Made by a program: the position numbers and the translations under genes. Shown piece after piece: positions 16,597 through 24,235 of a stretch of 64,000 nucleotides of DNA. A model generated the notes under the pieces. It had not been told where the DNA came from, did not search any database, and was given only the letters and a program-made list of their open reading frames with translations. Numbering within the stretch: the stretch's first letter is position 1; each line of letters begins with the position of its first letter. The stretch is from Gammaproteobacteria bacterium (GTDB lineage Bacteria; Pseudomonadota; Gammaproteobacteria; JAADJB01): assembly GCA_013151035.1 (NCBI GenBank), contig JAADJB010000010.1, positions 1 through 64,000 of the forward strand, read 5' to 3'.

Positions 16597-17196
16597 TCAC
16601 CTTTGGAACATATTACTTTTTCTGGCAAAACCAAACAACACAAGTAAGCCAGACCCCGTAAGGAAAAAGGTTGGCGGGAGTGGAACAGTTGATATTGTTC
16701 CCTGATATTCCCAATTATTAACAAAAGGAGGAAAAGAACCGCTACCACCGTAACCAACGGTAGTACTGATGCCAAAAATGTCATTCAATGGAGTATAATC
16801 AGTTAGAAGCGCAATACCCGGCGTCCAACCAAAAGTAAAATCAGTATCTCTAATCTCAATACCATTTATAGCCAACGAACCTGAAAAAAAACTAATATTT
16901 TCGGCTGGTGAAAACAAGCCAGGAACACTAAAAGCTCCTGCTTGCGGGCTACTGATTTCAAAAAAACTAACTATCGAAGAGTCATAGTTCCCCGACAATA
17001 TATCTGTTTCTGTGGTATCCAGAACAAGACGTCCCTCCCAGTTGGTTATATATTGGAAAGGAAGATTACCGTTCGCAGGCGGCTGCGAAGCACGAGACCA
17101 TGTGCCAGTATAGCTGTATAAAAGAGCGGCACTGGCGGTATTGATAGTAAAAAACATAAGAGCAAGCATTAAAAACATTGATTGAAGTGCTTTCAT
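16597..17196 (-). CDS. PEP-CTERM-like exported protein
   Basis: 199 residues from the ATG at 17196, which has a strong GGGAGG ribosome site; an upstream ATG at 17223 lacks one. There is an N-terminal signal peptide (ending about TASA). The C-terminus is a sorting-type tail: VPLPP, a hydrophobic segment (FLTGSGLLVLFGFA), then basic RKSNMFQR. This is the PEP-CTERM/VPLPA-type signal read by exosortases. The middle is rich in Ser, Gly and aromatic residues, as in secreted surface proteins. No exosortase is in the window. Its role is unknown; surface or biofilm association is typical of the class. Confidence 0.8.
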   Translation of the reverse strand: MKALQSMFLMLALMFFTINTASAALLYSYTGTWSRASQPPANGNLPFQYITNWEGRLVLDTTETDILSGNYDSSIVSFFEISSPQAGAFSVPGLFSPAENISFFSGSLAINGIEIRDTDFTFGWTPGIALLTDYTPLNDIFGISTTVGYGGSGSFPPFVNNWEYQGTISTVPLPPTFFLTGSGLLVLFGFARKSNMFQR

Positions 17197-17602
17197 GAGA
17201 AACCTCCCTAACTTTGAGCACAATTAAAATATCAATTTGCGACTTATATGGCAATATGGAGAGCCACTAACAATTTAGACAAGCAATTTTCAGGCCAACA
17301 TGATGATACTGTGAAATTAGTGGGCGTGGTCTGAAGCAATTAATAGAGGAGCTCTTAAGTGTAAGATTATCCGATGTAATAAAATCCTAGGGCAATAATG
17401 ATATGCTATTTAACTATTTGTTAAACAATTGATTTTTATGTATTTTTCCGAGGGGATGGTGGGCAACTACTTTAATGTAAAAAAAGCCGGCATATTTTTA
17501 TGTGATTAGCTCAGGTAATGCGGGAATTTATGGTGTTTATATAATGTTTACAAGGAGGTACACGCACCTGCGAATACAGAAAAAGTGTAAGGATTAAGGT
17601 AT
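17197..17602. other. AT-rich non-coding stretch upstream of the PEP-CTERM gene
   Basis: About 400 bases with no credible gene. It contains the presumed promoter of the PEP-CTERM gene on the minus strand. I looked for a sigma-54 -24/-12 site, known for some exosortase-linked genes, and did not find a convincing one. Confidence 0.5.
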
Positions 17603-18012: not shown

Positions 18013-18055
18013 ATTGACATATAATCAAGCGAATAAAATAATTGCAGGATTGGAC

Positions 18056-18862
18056 ATGTCTGAAAACAAGCAAGACACAGTGATTGAAGTTCGTAATCTG
18101 GTGACGCATTACGGCGACAGAGAGATCCTGAGCGGGGTTGATCTGGATATTAATCGTGGTGAGATCCGGGTTATTATGGGCGGTAGTGGTTCGGGTAAAA
18201 CAACATTGTTTCGGCATCTACTCGGTTTAAACAGACCCAGTTCCGGGGTTATTAAACTGTTAGGAAAAGATATTAATGCGATTAAGCGGTCTGAACTTTA
18301 TCAGCTACGCAAGGAACTGGGCGTTGCTTTTCAGAATGGTGCCTTATTAGGTTCCTTATCGGTGGGTGAAAATATCCGCTTGCCATTAAAGCAACATACC
18401 GATCTGGATGACAACATCACGAATATTATGATGCGTCTGAAGCTAGAGTTGGTCAGCCTGTCCGGGTTTGAAGATCTGATGCCTTCAGAACTCTCAGGAG
18501 GTATGTTGAAACGTACGGCGCTGGCACGGGCGGTGATTATGGATCCGCAGTTATTGTTCTTTGACGAACCCTCAGCCGGGCTTGATCCGGTGGTATCAGC
18601 GGAGCTTGATGAGTTGATTCTGCGCCTGCGTGATTCTCTCAATATGACTATTGTGGTGGTGACGCATGAGCTGGATAGCGCATTCAAGATTGCCGACCGC
18701 ATCACGGTTCTTGGTGCAGGTAAGGTGTTGACGACAGGAACTGTCGATGAGGTTAAAAATAGTGACAATGAACATATACAGAATATGCTGAACCGCCGAC
18801 CAGGCGATGATGTGGTGAATGCCGAAGAATACTTACAGCGCCTGACCGGCGGTAAATGCTAA
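18056..18862 (+). CDS. mlaF: Phospholipid ABC transporter ATP-binding protein MlaF
   Basis: Cytosolic ATPase of the MlaFEDB complex of the inner membrane, which moves phospholipids between the inner membrane and periplasmic MlaC. From the ATG at 18056: 268 residues. Walker A GGSGSGKTT (about 44-52), Q-loop (FQNGAL), signature LSGGM, Walker B LLFFDEP and switch His (THE) are all visible. The C-terminal extension after about 245 is the region that in MlaF contacts the partner subunit. Oddly it is on the plus strand, converging on the other mla genes, with REP palindromes at both ends. Confidence 0.93.
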   Translation: MSENKQDTVIEVRNLVTHYGDREILSGVDLDINRGEIRVIMGGSGSGKTTLFRHLLGLNRPSSGVIKLLGKDINAIKRSELYQLRKELGVAFQNGALLGSLSVGENIRLPLKQHTDLDDNITNIMMRLKLELVSLSGFEDLMPSELSGGMLKRTALARAVIMDPQLLFFDEPSAGLDPVVSAELDELILRLRDSLNMTIVVVTHELDSAFKIADRITVLGAGKVLTTGTVDEVKNSDNEHIQNMLNRRPGDDVVNAEEYLQRLTGGKC

Positions 18863-18891: not shown

Positions 18892-19491
18892 TCAGGGGTT
18901 TAACTCATTCACCTTATCGCGCATAGTGGCGAGCAGGCCATCAAAACCATTCTTTTTAATCAGTGACTGATAGGTGCTGCGATAGTTACTGATCAAGCTG
19001 ATCTTTTCGATCTCCACATCATAAACCAGCCAGTTTCCATTCTTCTGTATCAATTTATACTTGATTGGAATATCAGCGCTCTTGGTAACGATCATAGTCT
19101 TGATGATGGCCTTTCTGCCCTTGGTCTTACTTTTTAGATAACGGACTTTTTCATCGGTATAGGCCTCAAGCCTGCCGATATAGGTGTTTTGTATCAGCTG
19201 CTGAAATAATTCAGTGAAATCTTTTTTCTGTTGCGGGTTGGCCTTTCTCCAATTGGTTGCCAGGGCGCGTTGTGACATGCCGGTAAAATCAAATGACTGG
19301 CTGATCCTGTCTATGATGACCTTACGTTTTTCCTGCTTGCTGATGGAATCATCTTTAAGGGTGGTGAGAATATGATCAATAGTGCCTCTGACCTGTTCCA
19401 TCGGGGCTGATTCATTTGCCGCAAGAGGGCTGCTAATGCTGGCAATAATCAGGCTCAAAGAAAGTAGTATGTTTTTTAATAATAGAGTCAT
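18892..19491 (-). CDS. mlaC: Periplasmic phospholipid-binding protein MlaC
   Basis: Periplasmic shuttle carrying phospholipids between the outer-membrane MlaA complex and inner-membrane MlaFEDB. Signal peptide at about residues 1-24 (ending SSPLAA). The body matches the Tol-Tol-Ttg2 (MlaC) family: DFTGMSQRALATNWRKANP and the C-terminal NYRSTYQSLI motifs. 199 residues, close to the 211 of E. coli. It starts 3 bases after the end of mlaA and is the last gene of the operon. Confidence 0.95.
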   Translation of the reverse strand: MTLLLKNILLSLSLIIASISSPLAANESAPMEQVRGTIDHILTTLKDDSISKQEKRKVIIDRISQSFDFTGMSQRALATNWRKANPQQKKDFTELFQQLIQNTYIGRLEAYTDEKVRYLKSKTKGRKAIIKTMIVTKSADIPIKYKLIQKNGNWLVYDVEIEKISLISNYRSTYQSLIKKNGFDGLLATMRDKVNELNP

Positions 19492-19494
19492 GTC

Positions 19495-20208
19495 TTACTC
19501 CTCAACCTTGCCCTGGCGATGTTGAGCATAGGCATCACGGATGAATAGATATGGATCCAGTTGTTCCTTTTTAATGGATTCGTAGGTGTCCTTGTCCAGC
19601 GATACTTCATTGATGATGATGCCTGTTTGAGCGATATAATAGTCTCTCTCTGGTGACAACAGGGATAATGGATCCATATAGTAATTAGCAACCAGACCAA
19701 TACTATCCCTAAGGCTGGAAGGGCCAATAAAGGGAATCACTAGATAGAAGCCTTGTCCTACGCCATAATAGCCAAGGGTTTGACCGCTATCCTCATCCTT
19801 CTTGTAGATGTCCATCTCTCTGGCGGGATCAAAAAGCCCGAGGATACCAATGATGCTATTGATGGCAAAACGGCCACCTTCGGTGCCAGCATCACTGAAT
19901 TTCCCCTGTAATAATGAATTAATGAAGCGTATCGGAGTGGTCAGGTTGGAGACGAAATTCTTGAGTGCGATGCGGGCGGGTTCCGGGATATAACGAACGG
20001 CTTTAGCAACAGGTTTCAGTGCGTAGGAATACAGTATGTCATTAAAGCCAAAAAAGGCGCGATTGATCGGCTCCAGAGGGTCGGCGATCTCGATGATCTC
20101 TTCATCATCAAATTCATCATCGAGGATACTTTGTTCCATGTTGGCTGCGAGCGACAGGGCAGGGAAGAGCATAAATAGTGGCAGCAGGATGTGGTATATT
20201 TTTTTCAT
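19495..20208 (-). CDS. mlaA: Outer-membrane lipid asymmetry protein MlaA (VacJ family)
   Basis: VacJ/MlaA protein, which removes mislocalised phospholipids from the outer leaflet of the outer membrane. I chose the ATG at 20208 (AAAGGA ribosome site) over 20232. Core motifs DPLEPINRAFFGFND and GLFDPAREMD are intact. The signal peptide ends ALSLAAN and has no lipobox cysteine, whereas MlaA is normally a lipoprotein. In E. coli mlaA is unlinked; here it sits inside the mla operon between mlaD and mlaC. 237 residues. Confidence 0.94.
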   Translation of the reverse strand: MKKIYHILLPLFMLFPALSLAANMEQSILDDEFDDEEIIEIADPLEPINRAFFGFNDILYSYALKPVAKAVRYIPEPARIALKNFVSNLTTPIRFINSLLQGKFSDAGTEGGRFAINSIIGILGLFDPAREMDIYKKDEDSGQTLGYYGVGQGFYLVIPFIGPSSLRDSIGLVANYYMDPLSLLSPERDYYIAQTGIIINEVSLDKDTYESIKKEQLDPYLFIRDAYAQHRQGKVEE

Positions 20209-20218
20209 GGGATGTCCT

Positions 20219-20665
20219 TTATTTGCTTTCAAAGATATATTTGCTAATGAGTTCTTCCAGACTAATGGCGGATTCTGTCTCTGTTATTTCGTCATTATTC
20301 GATAGATAGATATCTGAGCCCCCGGGTTTAATCACAATGTAACGATCACCAATAATGCCTGCGGTACGGATGGCAGCGATGCTGTCCTCCTGTAATTTCA
20401 CCTGCTTACTAATGGACAGGGTAACAACGGCTTCATATTCCTCATTATCAAGAATAATGTCGGAGACCTTACCGATGTTGACACCCGCCAGTTCAATATT
20501 GGCACCTTCCTTTAATCCTGATATGGAGGTGAATCGACTCTGTAACTGGTAACTGTCATTATTAAGCAGGGCAATGTCCCCCATCTTGACAGCTAGATAG
20601 GCGAAACTTAAAAGCCCAACAATAATGAATAGGCCGACATTGAGTTCGATATTTTTTTTGTTCAT
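20219..20665 (-). CDS. mlaD: MCE-domain substrate-binding protein MlaD
   Basis: Single-pass inner-membrane protein with one MCE domain; in the Mla system a hexameric MlaD ring forms a lipid channel above MlaE. One membrane helix at about 8-25, then the MCE domain (FTSISGLKEGANIELAGVNI, about 45-64). 148 residues, shorter than E. coli MlaD (183), lacking much of the C-terminal tail. It starts 14 bases after mlaE ends. Confidence 0.95.
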   Translation of the reverse strand: MNKKNIELNVGLFIIVGLLSFAYLAVKMGDIALLNNDSYQLQSRFTSISGLKEGANIELAGVNIGKVSDIILDNEEYEAVVTLSISKQVKLQEDSIAAIRTAGIIGDRYIVIKPGGSDIYLSNNDEITETESAISLEELISKYIFESK

Positions 20666-20679
20666 GGTGTTGTATAACC

Positions 20680-21465
20680 TTATAACAGAAGGGTGCCAAT
20701 GATGTAATCAAATATTAATACGGATATGGATGACATAACAACAGCATCGGTGGTCACTTGACTGACACCCTCGGCACCAAAGACATTCTTGTTGAGGTGT
20801 AAAAAGAAGCCCTTGTAGGTGGCAATCAAGGCGATCAATAAGCCGAAAAAGGCTGACTTATAGATACCAAGAAGGATATCAGACATCATCACACTATCGT
20901 ACATGCCCTGAAAAAAAGCACCTTCACTGACACCTTCGAGTATCACCCCAACAAAATAGCCGCCCCATATCCCAAGGATATCGAAAATAAAGGTGAGTAG
21001 AGGAAGCGAGATAATGGCGGCAATGAATTTGGGTGCGATGAGGTATTTATAAGGGTCAATAGCCATGCATTCCAGTGCGTCGATCTGTTCAGAATGACGC
21101 ATAATGCCGATCTCGGCACAGATGGCTGATCCGGCACGTCCAATCACCATTAATGCCGTTAATACCGGGCCGAGTTCCTGAATTAGGCTCAGGGCTACGG
21201 CTGAACCTAGTAGCTCTTCAGAACCAAATTTCGCCAGATTATGATGACCTTGCAGACCGAGCACCATGCCCGTGAACAGACCGGTAACAATAATGACAAA
21301 ACTGGATCGGGAACCAATAAAGTAGATCTGCCGAATAATCGGTCGCCACTCATAAGGCGGATGCACAATACTGCTGAGGATGGCTGTTAGAAACAGACCC
21401 AAACGTCCGATATTGGTTGTAAAGTCAAGGAAGCGACGCCCCGTCTGTTCAATAAAAAGACGCAT
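20680..21465 (-). CDS. mlaE: Phospholipid ABC transporter permease MlaE
   Basis: Inner-membrane permease of the MlaFEDB complex. Five or six hydrophobic segments and the MlaE family motifs LGLQGHHNLAKFG, SLIQELGPVLTALMVIGRAG and EIGIMRHSEQIDALE, the last forming the coupling contact with MlaF. 261 residues, normal length. It begins 3 bases after the STAS gene ends, so the two are tightly coupled in one operon. Confidence 0.96.
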   Translation of the reverse strand: MRLFIEQTGRRFLDFTTNIGRLGLFLTAILSSIVHPPYEWRPIIRQIYFIGSRSSFVIIVTGLFTGMVLGLQGHHNLAKFGSEELLGSAVALSLIQELGPVLTALMVIGRAGSAICAEIGIMRHSEQIDALECMAIDPYKYLIAPKFIAAIISLPLLTFIFDILGIWGGYFVGVILEGVSEGAFFQGMYDSVMMSDILLGIYKSAFFGLLIALIATYKGFFLHLNKNVFGAEGVSQVTTDAVVMSSISVLIFDYIIGTLLL

Positions 21466-21468
21466 TTT

Positions 21469-21795
21469 TTAGCCCTGTAGCGCCTCATCAAGGGAAAGAA
21501 ACATACTGAACACCTTGTCCAGACGTGAGAGTTCCAGTACACGCAGAGCGGCATCACTGGTGGCAATTAGAGAGAAGGGTTGTTGTTTCTTTCTTGATTC
21601 CTGTAACGCCTCAACCAGGGTGGCAATGCCTGAGCTATCGATATAACTGACATCCTGCAGGTTAACCAGTACCTGGGTGGATTGTTGGACGGAATCCAGC
21701 AGGATCTTGCGTGATTGAGGCGAGTTTGACAGATCGATGTCTCCGCTAAAAGACACCAGAATGTAATCGTTCTCAATCTGTGTTGTATAATTCAT
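21469..21795 (-). CDS. STAS-domain protein, MlaB-like / anti-anti-sigma-like
   Basis: 108-residue STAS protein. In the Mla system the STAS protein MlaB binds MlaF and is needed for its activity; this gene has that position, 3 bases before mlaE. It also keeps the full phospho-switch motif of SpoIIAA/RsbV proteins, YIDSSGIATL, with the expected phospho-acceptor at Ser55. The gene directly upstream encodes a matching kinase and the next a matching phosphatase; it overlaps the kinase gene by 23 bases. It may therefore be an MlaB whose binding is gated by phosphorylation, or an anti-anti-sigma-type switch that only happens to be linked. Ribosome site AAGGGAA before the ATG at 21795. Confidence 0.85.
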   Translation of the reverse strand: MNYTTQIENDYILVSFSGDIDLSNSPQSRKILLDSVQQSTQVLVNLQDVSYIDSSGIATLVEALQESRKKQQPFSLIATSDAALRVLELSRLDKVFSMFLSLDEALQG

Positions 21796-22234
21796 AGATT
21801 CCCTTGTTAATCTTTTTGGATAAAAAAAGTATATTCCCCGTATTATCCGGTACGGGAAGATATTTGACTACATCCATGATTTTCTGGATCAGTAGAATGC
21901 CCAGACCACCTGGACTCAGTTTTTCTTTTTCTGTTGGCACTAGTATAGCCGGATCCACTTTTTTTGCATAATCCCGAATCCTGATCTCTATGGATGAGTC
22001 ATGGTACTGGATGTCGATATCGATTATACCTGATTCATTATCGTTGTAGGCATAACGGACAATATTCTGGCAGCTTTCATCAACCGCGATGATAATATCA
22101 TGGGTGTCTCTTGCTGTGCAGGCAAAGGCGGCGCAGGCACGATTGACCAGTTCACGAATGGATTTAAGCTGGTCAGCCCGAGCGGGGATCTGTGATCGAC
22201 GATAGACCTGTGGCTGAGGGATATCAGCGTTCAT
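21773..22234 (-). CDS. RsbW/SpoIIAB-like serine protein kinase (HATPase_c)
   Basis: 153-residue single GHKL ATPase domain, the fold of anti-sigma kinases. N-box VDESCQNIVRYAY with E53 and N57; G1-box D88 (DYAKK, where DxG is usual); G2-box PGGLGILLI (about 108-116). In partner-switching systems such kinases phosphorylate a STAS protein on the DSSG serine. The STAS gene overlaps its 3' end and the phosphatase gene overlaps its 5' end by 11 bases, so the three are translationally coupled. No sigma factor gene is nearby, so its binding partner other than the STAS protein is unknown. Confidence 0.88.
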   Translation of the reverse strand: MNADIPQPQVYRRSQIPARADQLKSIRELVNRACAAFACTARDTHDIIIAVDESCQNIVRYAYNDNESGIIDIDIQYHDSSIEIRIRDYAKKVDPAILVPTEKEKLSPGGLGILLIQKIMDVVKYLPVPDNTGNILFLSKKINKGIYELYNTD

Positions 22235-23534
22235 CCTTAAGACTCATGATGGTTATGTCATCGTGTAGTTCGGTATTGGATTGTTGTAACAGAGAACAGA
22301 CATGGGCAATCTGTTCACGATTTGAAACATGTTGCTGATCAATGAGTTCCTGCTTCAGTCGGTCAATGCCCAAACGGGTACTGGTATCAATTCGGCCTTC
22401 AGTAACACCATCACTGAATATATACAGGCAACCGCCATCAAGCATGATTTCCTGTTCAGCAATGGTTTCATCCTGCGTTAGGGGCGGGACAATGCCTAGT
22501 GGTGGCGCACTGGCCTCAATACTGGTGTATTGCATGGCCTGATTGAGGAAAAGTGCGGGTTCGTGACCCGCATTGGCCAATATTGTCCTGCCTGTTGCAG
22601 GATCATAGGTGCCACAGAGCATGGTGACAAACATACCCCGGGTAGCCGTCTCACAGATCTCAACATTAATCTTGGCAAGTAGCTTGCCAGGCTGGTGAAT
22701 ATTCTTGCCCAGGCAACGAAACAGGCTGGCGGTCTTTGCCATTAACAAGGCAGCATTCATGCCCTTGCCCGAGACATCACCCAGGCTAAAATAGATACGC
22801 CCATCATCTAAGACAAAATAATCGTAGAAATCACCGGATATTGTTCTGGCGGGGATGTTGATACCAAAAATGGGTAGTTTGTCATCGGCAACGGGTAGCA
22901 GGCTACGCTGGATCTCGGCAGCCATATCGATTTCTTGCTGTACACGTTGTTGTTCCATTAATCTTTCAGCCATGCGTGTATTGGCAATGGCCATTGAGGT
23001 GGCAGATGCCAATGTTTGCAACATAAGCAGGTCGGACTCGGTAAAACGCGTATCTTTTTCTCGTCGATTAACCAGTTCGATGGCGCCGATTTTTTCATCA
23101 TGGGTCACCAACGGGGCGCACAGGATAGATTCGGTCTTGAAGCCGGATTCTTCATCCACCTCAGTGATAAAATCAGGATCTTGACTAACATCGCGTACGA
23201 TTTTGCCCTGGCCGGTGGTAACACAGTGACCAATAATGCCCTGATCGGCATCAATTTTGATCCCGGTAATATCAATCGGGCCGACCGATGCCTTACAGGT
23301 GAGACGGCTGGCATCATCCTCCAGGATGAACAATGAGCCGGCCTGGGCATTGACATAATGGGCAATCAATACCAGTGCGCGCTCAATAGTGTCGGTCACA
23401 TTGCTATTACTAGAGGCAAGATGACTACTCATCTCGGCAAGTAATTGCAGGTGCCCGGACAGTTGGTTACGTGTCCTACGATCGGATTGATCCGGGTTTC
23501 TGCGTTCGTGTTGGCTTATAGTGTTTTCTAACAT
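22224..23534 (-). CDS. GAF-domain PP2C phosphatase (RsbU/SpoIIE-like)
   Basis: 436 residues. A GAF sensor domain (about 30-190) is followed by a linker and a PPM/PP2C-type SpoIIE phosphatase domain (about 200-434). Metal-binding acidic residues are in place: D235 and D238 (SGDFYDYF), D253 (LGDVSGKGM), D375 (FSDGVTE) and D425/D426 (HDDITIM). This class dephosphorylates phospho-STAS proteins. The GAF domain would set the input (small ligand or redox); its ligand cannot be read from sequence. First gene of the partner-switch/mla operon. No membrane segment. Confidence 0.92.
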   Translation of the reverse strand: MLENTISQHERRNPDQSDRRTRNQLSGHLQLLAEMSSHLASSNSNVTDTIERALVLIAHYVNAQAGSLFILEDDASRLTCKASVGPIDITGIKIDADQGIIGHCVTTGQGKIVRDVSQDPDFITEVDEESGFKTESILCAPLVTHDEKIGAIELVNRREKDTRFTESDLLMLQTLASATSMAIANTRMAERLMEQQRVQQEIDMAAEIQRSLLPVADDKLPIFGINIPARTISGDFYDYFVLDDGRIYFSLGDVSGKGMNAALLMAKTASLFRCLGKNIHQPGKLLAKINVEICETATRGMFVTMLCGTYDPATGRTILANAGHEPALFLNQAMQYTSIEASAPPLGIVPPLTQDETIAEQEIMLDGGCLYIFSDGVTEGRIDTSTRLGIDRLKQELIDQQHVSNREQIAHVCSLLQQSNTELHDDITIMSLKDER

Positions 23535-23575: not shown

Positions 23576-24235
23576 TCAACAATATTGCTCCAGATATTGA
23601 ATAAACCGACTACGTGGAATAACGCTAGCACCTAAACGACTCAGATGCGCTGACCCCACCTGGCAATCAATTAGCTCAAGTTCCCCTTGATTAAAGTACC
23701 GAACCAGATGCACCAGGGCAATCTTGGAGGCATCGGATTGTCGGCTAAACATGGATTCACCAAAGAATACTTGTCCAATATGAATGCCATAGAGCCCACC
23801 GATGAGTTGTCCTTGCTGCCACACCTCAACCGAGTGCGCATGACCAAGTTTATGGAGCTGGGCGTAGGCCTCGATCATCGCGCTATTGATCCAGGTGCCA
23901 TTTTGTCCGGGTCGGGGTTCGCTACAGGCCTGGATGACGGCATTAAAGGACTGATTAAAACTGATTTCAATGACCTTGTTGCGTAGGCTCTTGCCAAGAC
24001 TGCGAGAGACCTTTAGCTGATTGGGAAATAACACTGTGCGCGGATCAGGTGACCACCAGAGTATCGGTTCACCCTCGTTATACCAGGGGAAGATACCCTG
24101 ACGATAGGCACTTAACAGACGTTCAGGGCTGAGATCGCCACCAAAGGCCAATAGGCCATCGGGTTCCTGTAATGCCTGTGTAACAGCAGGGAAACACAGG
24201 GTGTCATCTAACAGGGTAATCGGTAACGGACTCAC
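23576..24235 (-). CDS. aat: Leucyl/phenylalanyl-tRNA--protein transferase
   Basis: Adds Leu or Phe to proteins with N-terminal Arg or Lys, creating N-degrons read by ClpS for ClpAP. Family motifs are intact: FPWYNEGEPILWWSPDPRTV (about 50-69), GTWINSAMIEAY, and SMFSRQSDASKIAL. 219 residues, normal. In E. coli aat follows infA; here it lies downstream of trxB and is separated from infA by the PEP-CTERM and mla genes. Confidence 0.97.
   Translation of the reverse strand: MSPLPITLLDDTLCFPAVTQALQEPDGLLAFGGDLSPERLLSAYRQGIFPWYNEGEPILWWSPDPRTVLFPNQLKVSRSLGKSLRNKVIEISFNQSFNAVIQACSEPRPGQNGTWINSAMIEAYAQLHKLGHAHSVEVWQQGQLIGGLYGIHIGQVFFGESMFSRQSDASKIALVHLVRYFNQGELELIDCQVGSAHLSRLGASVIPRSRFIQYLEQYC

Follow-up and report, generated by a model that had tools for sequence, protein, structure and literature searches.

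A partner-switching cassette beside Mla lipid transport genes and its predicted action on an MlaF subfamily

We analyzed a stretch of gammaproteobacterial DNA of 64,000 nucleotides (here, the window) in which genes for a phosphatase, a kinase, and a STAS protein run directly into genes for a lipid transporter. Gene order and co-occurrence make it likely that this cassette is a phosphorylation-controlled partner switch with an ABC lipid transporter as its output, the STAS protein acting on an ATPase of a subfamily that we term MlaF' as MlaB acts on MlaF. A preliminary description of the same DNA had proposed that the cascade targets an ABC lipid transporter through the STAS protein and not a sigma factor. 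Gene order and co-occurrence over hundreds of genomes lend that proposal strong support, with the amendment that the partner that stays with the cassette is MlaF'.

The cassette and its operon

On the minus strand of the window, the list of open reading frames (ORFs) gives seven genes from 23534 down to 18892 in the order PP2C, kinase, STAS, mlaE, mlaD, mlaA, and mlaC. The first encodes a PP2C-type (SpoIIE/RsbU-like) phosphatase of 436 aa with an N-terminal GAF domain (22224-23534; Pfam GAF and SpoIIE, 129 bits), the second an RsbW/SpoIIAB-like serine kinase of 153 aa (21773-22234; HATPase_c_2, 91.5 bits), and the third a 108-aa STAS protein with a DSSG motif, which is the predicted switchable MlaB-like subunit (21469-21795; STAS, 65 bits; TIGR00377 above cut-off). 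These are followed by mlaE, encoding a permease of 261 aa (20680-21465; PF02405, 256 bits; TIGR00056 above cut-off), and mlaD, encoding a single-MCE protein of 148 aa (20219-20665; TIGR04430 OM_asym_MlaD, 162.6 bits against a cut-off of 135; Pfam MlaD, 70 bits). The lipoprotein gene mlaA (19495-20232; PF04333, 224 bits) likely starts at a Met at about 20208, and mlaC encodes a periplasmic lipid carrier of 199 aa (18892-19491; PF05494, 155 bits). The ORFs and Pfam matches agree with the order first described, in which GAF-PP2C, RsbW-like kinase, and STAS (DSSG) genes lead into mlaE-mlaD-mlaA-mlaC, and the ORF coordinates reproduce the reported spacing: neighboring cassette genes overlap by 11 and 23 bases, and 3 bases separate the STAS gene from mlaE.

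While the mlaE-mlaD-mlaA-mlaC operon stands as described, mlaF had gone unnamed. This gene for an ABC ATPase of 268 aa (MlaF' subfamily) adjoins mlaC at 18056-18862 on the plus strand, is convergent with it, and therefore lies outside the cassette operon. Directly upstream of mlaF is a sigma-70-like promoter, TTGACA-17-AATAAT (18014-18042, plus strand), with 11/12 matches, which is a consensus match only. At the other end, another ORF on the same strand (23576-24235, resembling aat) stops 41 bases before the PP2C gene begins, and the operon may therefore extend farther upstream. Profile searches found MlaE, MlaD, MlaC, MlaA, and MlaF all present in the window; MlaD passed its equivalog cut-off, and MlaF, at 205.9 bits, fell below the E. 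coli equivalog cut-off of 441. The window operon has neither a long MCE protein nor a PqiC-like lipoprotein, the marks of the Mpc type, and carries MlaD, MlaA, and MlaC in their place. Elsewhere in the window, at 16597-17223, we noted a small exported protein whose tail (VPLPP...LFGFARK) resembles a PEP-CTERM sorting signal, and a similar tail occurs at locus L038 (7852-8844).

All parts of an RsbU/W/V-type module were found: a GHKL kinase with intact N and G boxes, a STAS protein with an alignable Ser, and a PP2C with a sensory domain. The phosphatase and kinase motifs had been called intact from the outset, and we reached the same result, with the PP2C domain matched by Pfam and residues E53, N57, D88, and G109-G112 retained in the kinase. 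These residues (the N-box Glu and Asn, the G1 Asp, and GGLG) are identical in 142/142 cassette kinases, and the closest PDB folds to the AF2 model of the window kinase are SpoIIAB and RsbW. The window kinase deviates at two near-invariant sites, S54 (Ala in 142/142) and Y61 (His in 140/142). The C-terminal region of the window PP2C is 42-49% identical to the PP2Cs at the same place in relatives. The input domain of those PP2Cs is GAF or HDOD, and the GAF-PP2C of the window is the predicted input phosphatase. In nearly every cassette the kinase, PP2C, and STAS genes are adjacent, and the PP2C and kinase are often fused.

The STAS protein passed the anti-sigma antagonist model TIGR00377 (74.6 bits; cut-off, 53.45) and failed the MlaB model NF033618 (24.9 bits; cut-off, 90). 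Its AF2 model (pLDDT 95) has a TM of 0.86 to RsbV and about 0.6 to MlaB. The C-terminal strand and helix of the model have no counterpart in MlaB and could change the MlaF contact. Judged by sequence and modeled fold, the protein is RsbV-like; it is MlaB-like in its proposed role, and the name MlaB is unsuitable. The earlier statement that the STAS protein is MlaB was thus not right as a family assignment, and a genuine MlaB is encoded elsewhere in the genome, in an MlaFEDCB operon.

Neither serine of DSSG varies among the 141 cassette STAS proteins. In the STAS profile alignment, position 54 falls on residue 52 of MlaB (chain 6xbd_K) and, in RsbV (chain 6m36_B), on the Ser of DSTG; the phospho-sites of RsbV and SpoIIAA are S56 (PMC11418112) and S58 (PMC8256260), respectively. 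Through this alignment the first Ser of DSSG, Ser54 (codon 21634-21636, minus strand), is the counterpart of RsbV S56 and of T52 in E. coli MlaB, which makes it the predicted acceptor. The second Ser, Ser55, had been put forward as the acceptor, and this register rules it out as off by one. MlaB and one STAS-MlaE fusion (DSAG), neither with an adjacent kinase, likewise retain a Ser/Thr at position 54, so its conservation alone is no proof of phosphorylation.

Recurrence of the cassette and its ATPase partner

When 56 relatives were searched with the kinase, the seven top matches in other genomes all came with the cassette STAS; in six of them mlaE and/or mlaF immediately followed the STAS gene, and one was solo. 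Among 370 genomes of the class, we set the threshold of the kinase profile at >110 bits, above a gap down to 81, and found the kinase subfamily in 55. The wider phylum sample had it in just 8/398 genomes, so the 15% frequency is valid for the class sample only. We inspected the loci of all 55 high-scoring kinases and of 22 lower-scoring ones. In 50 of the 54 assessable class loci, mlaE and/or mlaF lay directly after the STAS gene. The 80 named loci in other genomes came from Rhodospirillales, Magnetospirillum, Gammaproteobacteria, and Myxococcota/Deltaproteobacteria MAGs; 77 were linked to mlaE/mlaF (L072 among them on a weak 73-bit ATPase match), one lay at a contig edge, and two were solo. 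A genome search for the cassette followed by mlaE was the check that the preliminary description had suggested, and the recurrence of the same order in these loci indicates that the window arrangement is not chance. None of the 22 low-scoring kinases was near mlaE/F, and one adjoined a sigma factor. As first described, no sigma factor gene appears around the cassette in the ORF list of the window; nor was one found near about 135 related loci with this genome's own sigma proteins as queries, which have limited reach. Upstream of the cassette in three genomes of different families is a gene for a similar cysteine-rich, radical-SAM-like protein (L054, 9489-10448; L056, 9302-10270; L059, 8818-9783), which may point to a conserved chromosomal site or to a link in function.

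The genes downstream of the cassette follow several plans. Most cassettes precede MlaE, MlaF, a long MCE protein, and a PqiC-like lipoprotein in an Mpc-like order. At L056 and L188 they precede MlaF-MlaE-MlaD-MlaA-MlaC, and in the window and at L205, L207, and L215 they precede MlaE-MlaD-MlaA-MlaC with a convergent MlaF; L067 is like the window, and the MlaA search marked no MlaA there. The remaining plans have MlaF alone after the cassette (L057, L148) or nothing. Since the constant partner across these plans is the MlaF' subfamily, we rejected the idea that the cassette is tied to the Mla operon itself.

MlaF' was defined by profile A4 with a self-chosen cut-off (E up to 1e-105) and was present in 57/370 class genomes. 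Kinase and MlaF' occurred together in 54 of the 370, the kinase alone in 1, MlaF' alone in 3, and neither in 312 (Fisher p about 4e-60, kinship ignored). The 54 include three genomes whose cassette and mlaF' are unlinked. The three with MlaF' and no kinase are G063, G212, and G011, the last with mlaF' at a contig start. Two genomes have a cassette without any MlaF', namely G280, the sole such case among the 55 kinase genomes, and Magnetospirillum fulvum (G376), so other outputs are possible. In the unlinked-cassette genomes G043, G106, G362, and Pleionea sediminis, an MlaF' operon lies elsewhere without an adjacent STAS gene, as it does in G170, where the cassette runs off the contig. We also observed a second MlaF' operon (MlaF-MlaE-MlaD, some with MlaA/MlaC) without a STAS gene at L275, L276, L278, and L279, beside one cassette-linked operon per genome.

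The window MlaF is 59-69% identical to the cassette-linked MlaF of relatives, and in the tree it groups with four other convergent mlaF genes (SH-aLRT 96). The C-terminal extension of MlaF' has R247 and Y259 in 105/105 sequences and L263 in 104/105, and in the window protein this extension ends Y259-L-Q-R-L263. In E. coli, the MlaF extension puts Y261, L265, and L266 at the MlaF-MlaB interface (PMC7367683), and the Y-to-L spacing of the MlaF' tail equals that of Y261/L265.

The genome of the window (2.40 Mb, 54 contigs, 97.65% complete) encodes four MlaE proteins. On contig C8 lies a canonical operon, mlaF-E-D-(TolC-like)-C-B; DSAG is the motif of its MlaB, and its MlaF is 40% identical to that of the window. 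This operon rules out the STAS protein as the genome's only MlaB. The preliminary description had set a second canonical mlaB together with a kinase-binding sigma factor against its own reading; such an mlaB exists but belongs with the different MlaF of C8, and the sigma factor was not seen. Between mlaD and mlaC of the C8 operon is a TolC-like outer membrane efflux gene (L035, 5123-6484). Contig C45 has an operon of GAF-HD-GYP, mlaE, mlaF, long MCE, and lipoprotein genes with no STAS gene, and its MlaF groups with alphaproteobacterial and myxococcal cassette-linked MlaF (SH-aLRT 98). This MlaF' without an adjacent STAS gene counts against our model. The GAF-HD-GYP-like gene overlaps the start of the MlaE'-MlaF'-MCE-lipoprotein operon (L036, 7018-9757) where relatives have the STAS cassette, and its product is possibly a further regulatory input to the same transporter type. 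A distant mlaE/ATPase pair lies on contig C20, and the window MlaA was the single MlaA match found in the genome. STAS and kinase genes on contigs C40 and C51 do not adjoin Mla genes. The former belong to a chemotaxis cluster (L037, 5152-7205) with a STAS protein and a response-regulator PP2C bearing a C-terminal HATPase, which resembles the Pseudomonas PA3346/PA3347 pair; the latter form a stressosome-like cluster (L040, 2967-6207; STAS, RsbR-like, HATPase plus PP2C-like, and GGDEF), a separate partner-switching module.

Proposed mechanism and alternatives

In our model, the simplest one for a STAS protein with its own kinase and phosphatase ahead of an MlaF-powered transporter, unphosphorylated STAS would bind MlaF' as MlaB binds MlaF, leading to assembly with MlaE and ATP hydrolysis. 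The RsbW-like kinase would compete for the same face of STAS and phosphorylate Ser54, upon which phospho-STAS would free itself from MlaF' and transport would be off. A signal at the GAF input (HDOD in some relatives) would cause PP2C to dephosphorylate STAS and turn transport on. The direct STAS-MlaF' contact and the phosphorylation of STAS are predictions; that STAS would bind MlaF' and support its ATPase is suggested by linkage and co-occurrence only. We infer the direction, with the unphosphorylated state as on, by analogy, because the T52E variant of E. coli MlaB lowers MlaF binding (PMC7367683). In the same species, MlaB is required for MlaF assembly with MlaE (PMC5016091, PMC7367683), and T52A abolishes ATPase activity (PMC5016091). 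In Bacillus, RsbW and SpoIIAB phosphorylate the aligned STAS position and PP2C enzymes reverse this (PMC8256260, PMC11418112). STAS-MlaE fusions exist among the genomes examined, and Brucella MpcE is a STAS-permease fusion (PMC12436622). It counts for the model that the permease and operon type vary while MlaF' stays; the resemblance of the STAS protein to RsbV, in both sequence and fold, counts against it.

The same RsbW- and RsbV-like sequences and folds of kinase and STAS would suit a classical sigma switch, in which the kinase serves as anti-sigma factor to a sigma factor encoded at an unlinked site, the Mla genes being mere co-transcribed targets or neighbors. The genome does encode seven Sigma70_r2 proteins, all elsewhere. 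In canonical systems, however, the sigma gene typically adjoins the kinase gene, and there was no sigma match near the roughly 135 cassette loci, compared to one among the 22 other kinases. Nor would a sigma switch explain why the cassette co-occurs with a single ATPase subfamily, even where the two are unlinked, and we regard such a switch as unlikely. Gene linkage and co-occurrence fit equally a scheme in which the kinase itself binds and inhibits MlaF' and unphosphorylated STAS relieves this by sequestering the kinase, a direct analogue of RsbW-sigma-RsbV logic. We consider this quite unlikely in view of E. coli, where a STAS protein (MlaB) binds MlaF, and of other systems that fuse STAS to MlaE. 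In addition, the gene adjoining the transporter genes is STAS, and the conserved C-terminal extension of MlaF' is the part that meets MlaB in E. coli.

Finally, the STAS protein might be an unregulated structural MlaB-like subunit, with the kinase and phosphatase acting on something else. Position 54 could have a structural or catalytic role, given its conservation without a kinase in MlaB and the STAS-MlaE fusion and the effect of T52A. However, the adjacency of the three genes, the frequent PP2C-kinase fusions, the invariant catalytic residues of the kinase, and the finding of no other STAS target encoded nearby all speak against this, and we believe it to be very improbable.

Returning to a switch that acts through STAS on MlaF', we offer one tentative extension, toward which we are somewhat skeptical: one diffusible STAS may be a phosphorylation-gated subunit shared by all transporters of the cell that MlaF' powers. 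The Mla-type EDAC transporter of the window and the Mpc-type transporter on C45 would be the two in this genome. If this is true, a single kinase/phosphatase pair would set overall lipid traffic between the two membranes.

Relation to known systems

The preliminary description knew of no characterized system of this kind, and the literature that we searched, with most subscription journals outside its scope, likewise gave no description of a cassette-Mla system. We know of no dedicated MlaB kinase, and none was found in the literature searched. Partner switches without a sigma output are already known, and phosphoregulation of MlaB is proposed, not shown: Thong et al. 2016 and Kolich et al. 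2020 both proposed regulation by T52 phosphorylation, the latter stating that there was no experimental evidence. With a dedicated kinase and phosphatase encoded alongside STAS and transporter in many Proteobacteria, this question becomes directly testable. If our model is true, partner switching would reach beyond transcription to act directly on an ABC transporter, and outer-membrane lipid homeostasis would have a post-translational control mechanism. For some orphan partner switches that have no sigma factor, the arrangement suggests a candidate output.

The cassette shares with RsbU-RsbW-RsbV and SpoIIE-SpoIIAB-SpoIIAA a PP2C with an input domain, a GHKL serine kinase, and a STAS protein with DSSG, and its kinase and STAS folds match SpoIIAB/RsbW and RsbV. 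It differs in that no sigma factor was found in its locus in any relative and that the output gene encodes an ABC ATPase or permease. The Rba system of Rhodobacter capsulatus (RbaV/W/Y) and other sigma-less switches of Gram-negative bacteria (PMC3999984, PMC8256260) also combine a STAS protein, a kinase, and a PP2C and lack a neighboring sigma factor, and STAS is thought to be their output; rbaVW, however, is a two-gene operon for which no MlaE/MlaF link is reported. As in E. coli MlaFEDB, the STAS protein is encoded with MlaF, MlaE, MlaD, and MlaC, and Ser54 aligns with MlaB T52 near the center of the MlaF interface. In contrast, no kinase or phosphatase dedicated to E. coli MlaB is known and no phosphorylation of it is on record, and the RsbV-like cassette STAS fails the MlaB cut-off. 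The operon plan downstream of most cassettes (MlaE, MlaF, long MCE, and PqiC-like lipoprotein) is that of the Brucella Mpc (Mla-Pqi chimeric) system, MpcE-F-D-A (PMC12436622). There, STAS is fused to the permease and the system has four genes only, whereas the cassette STAS is free and comes with a kinase and a phosphatase.
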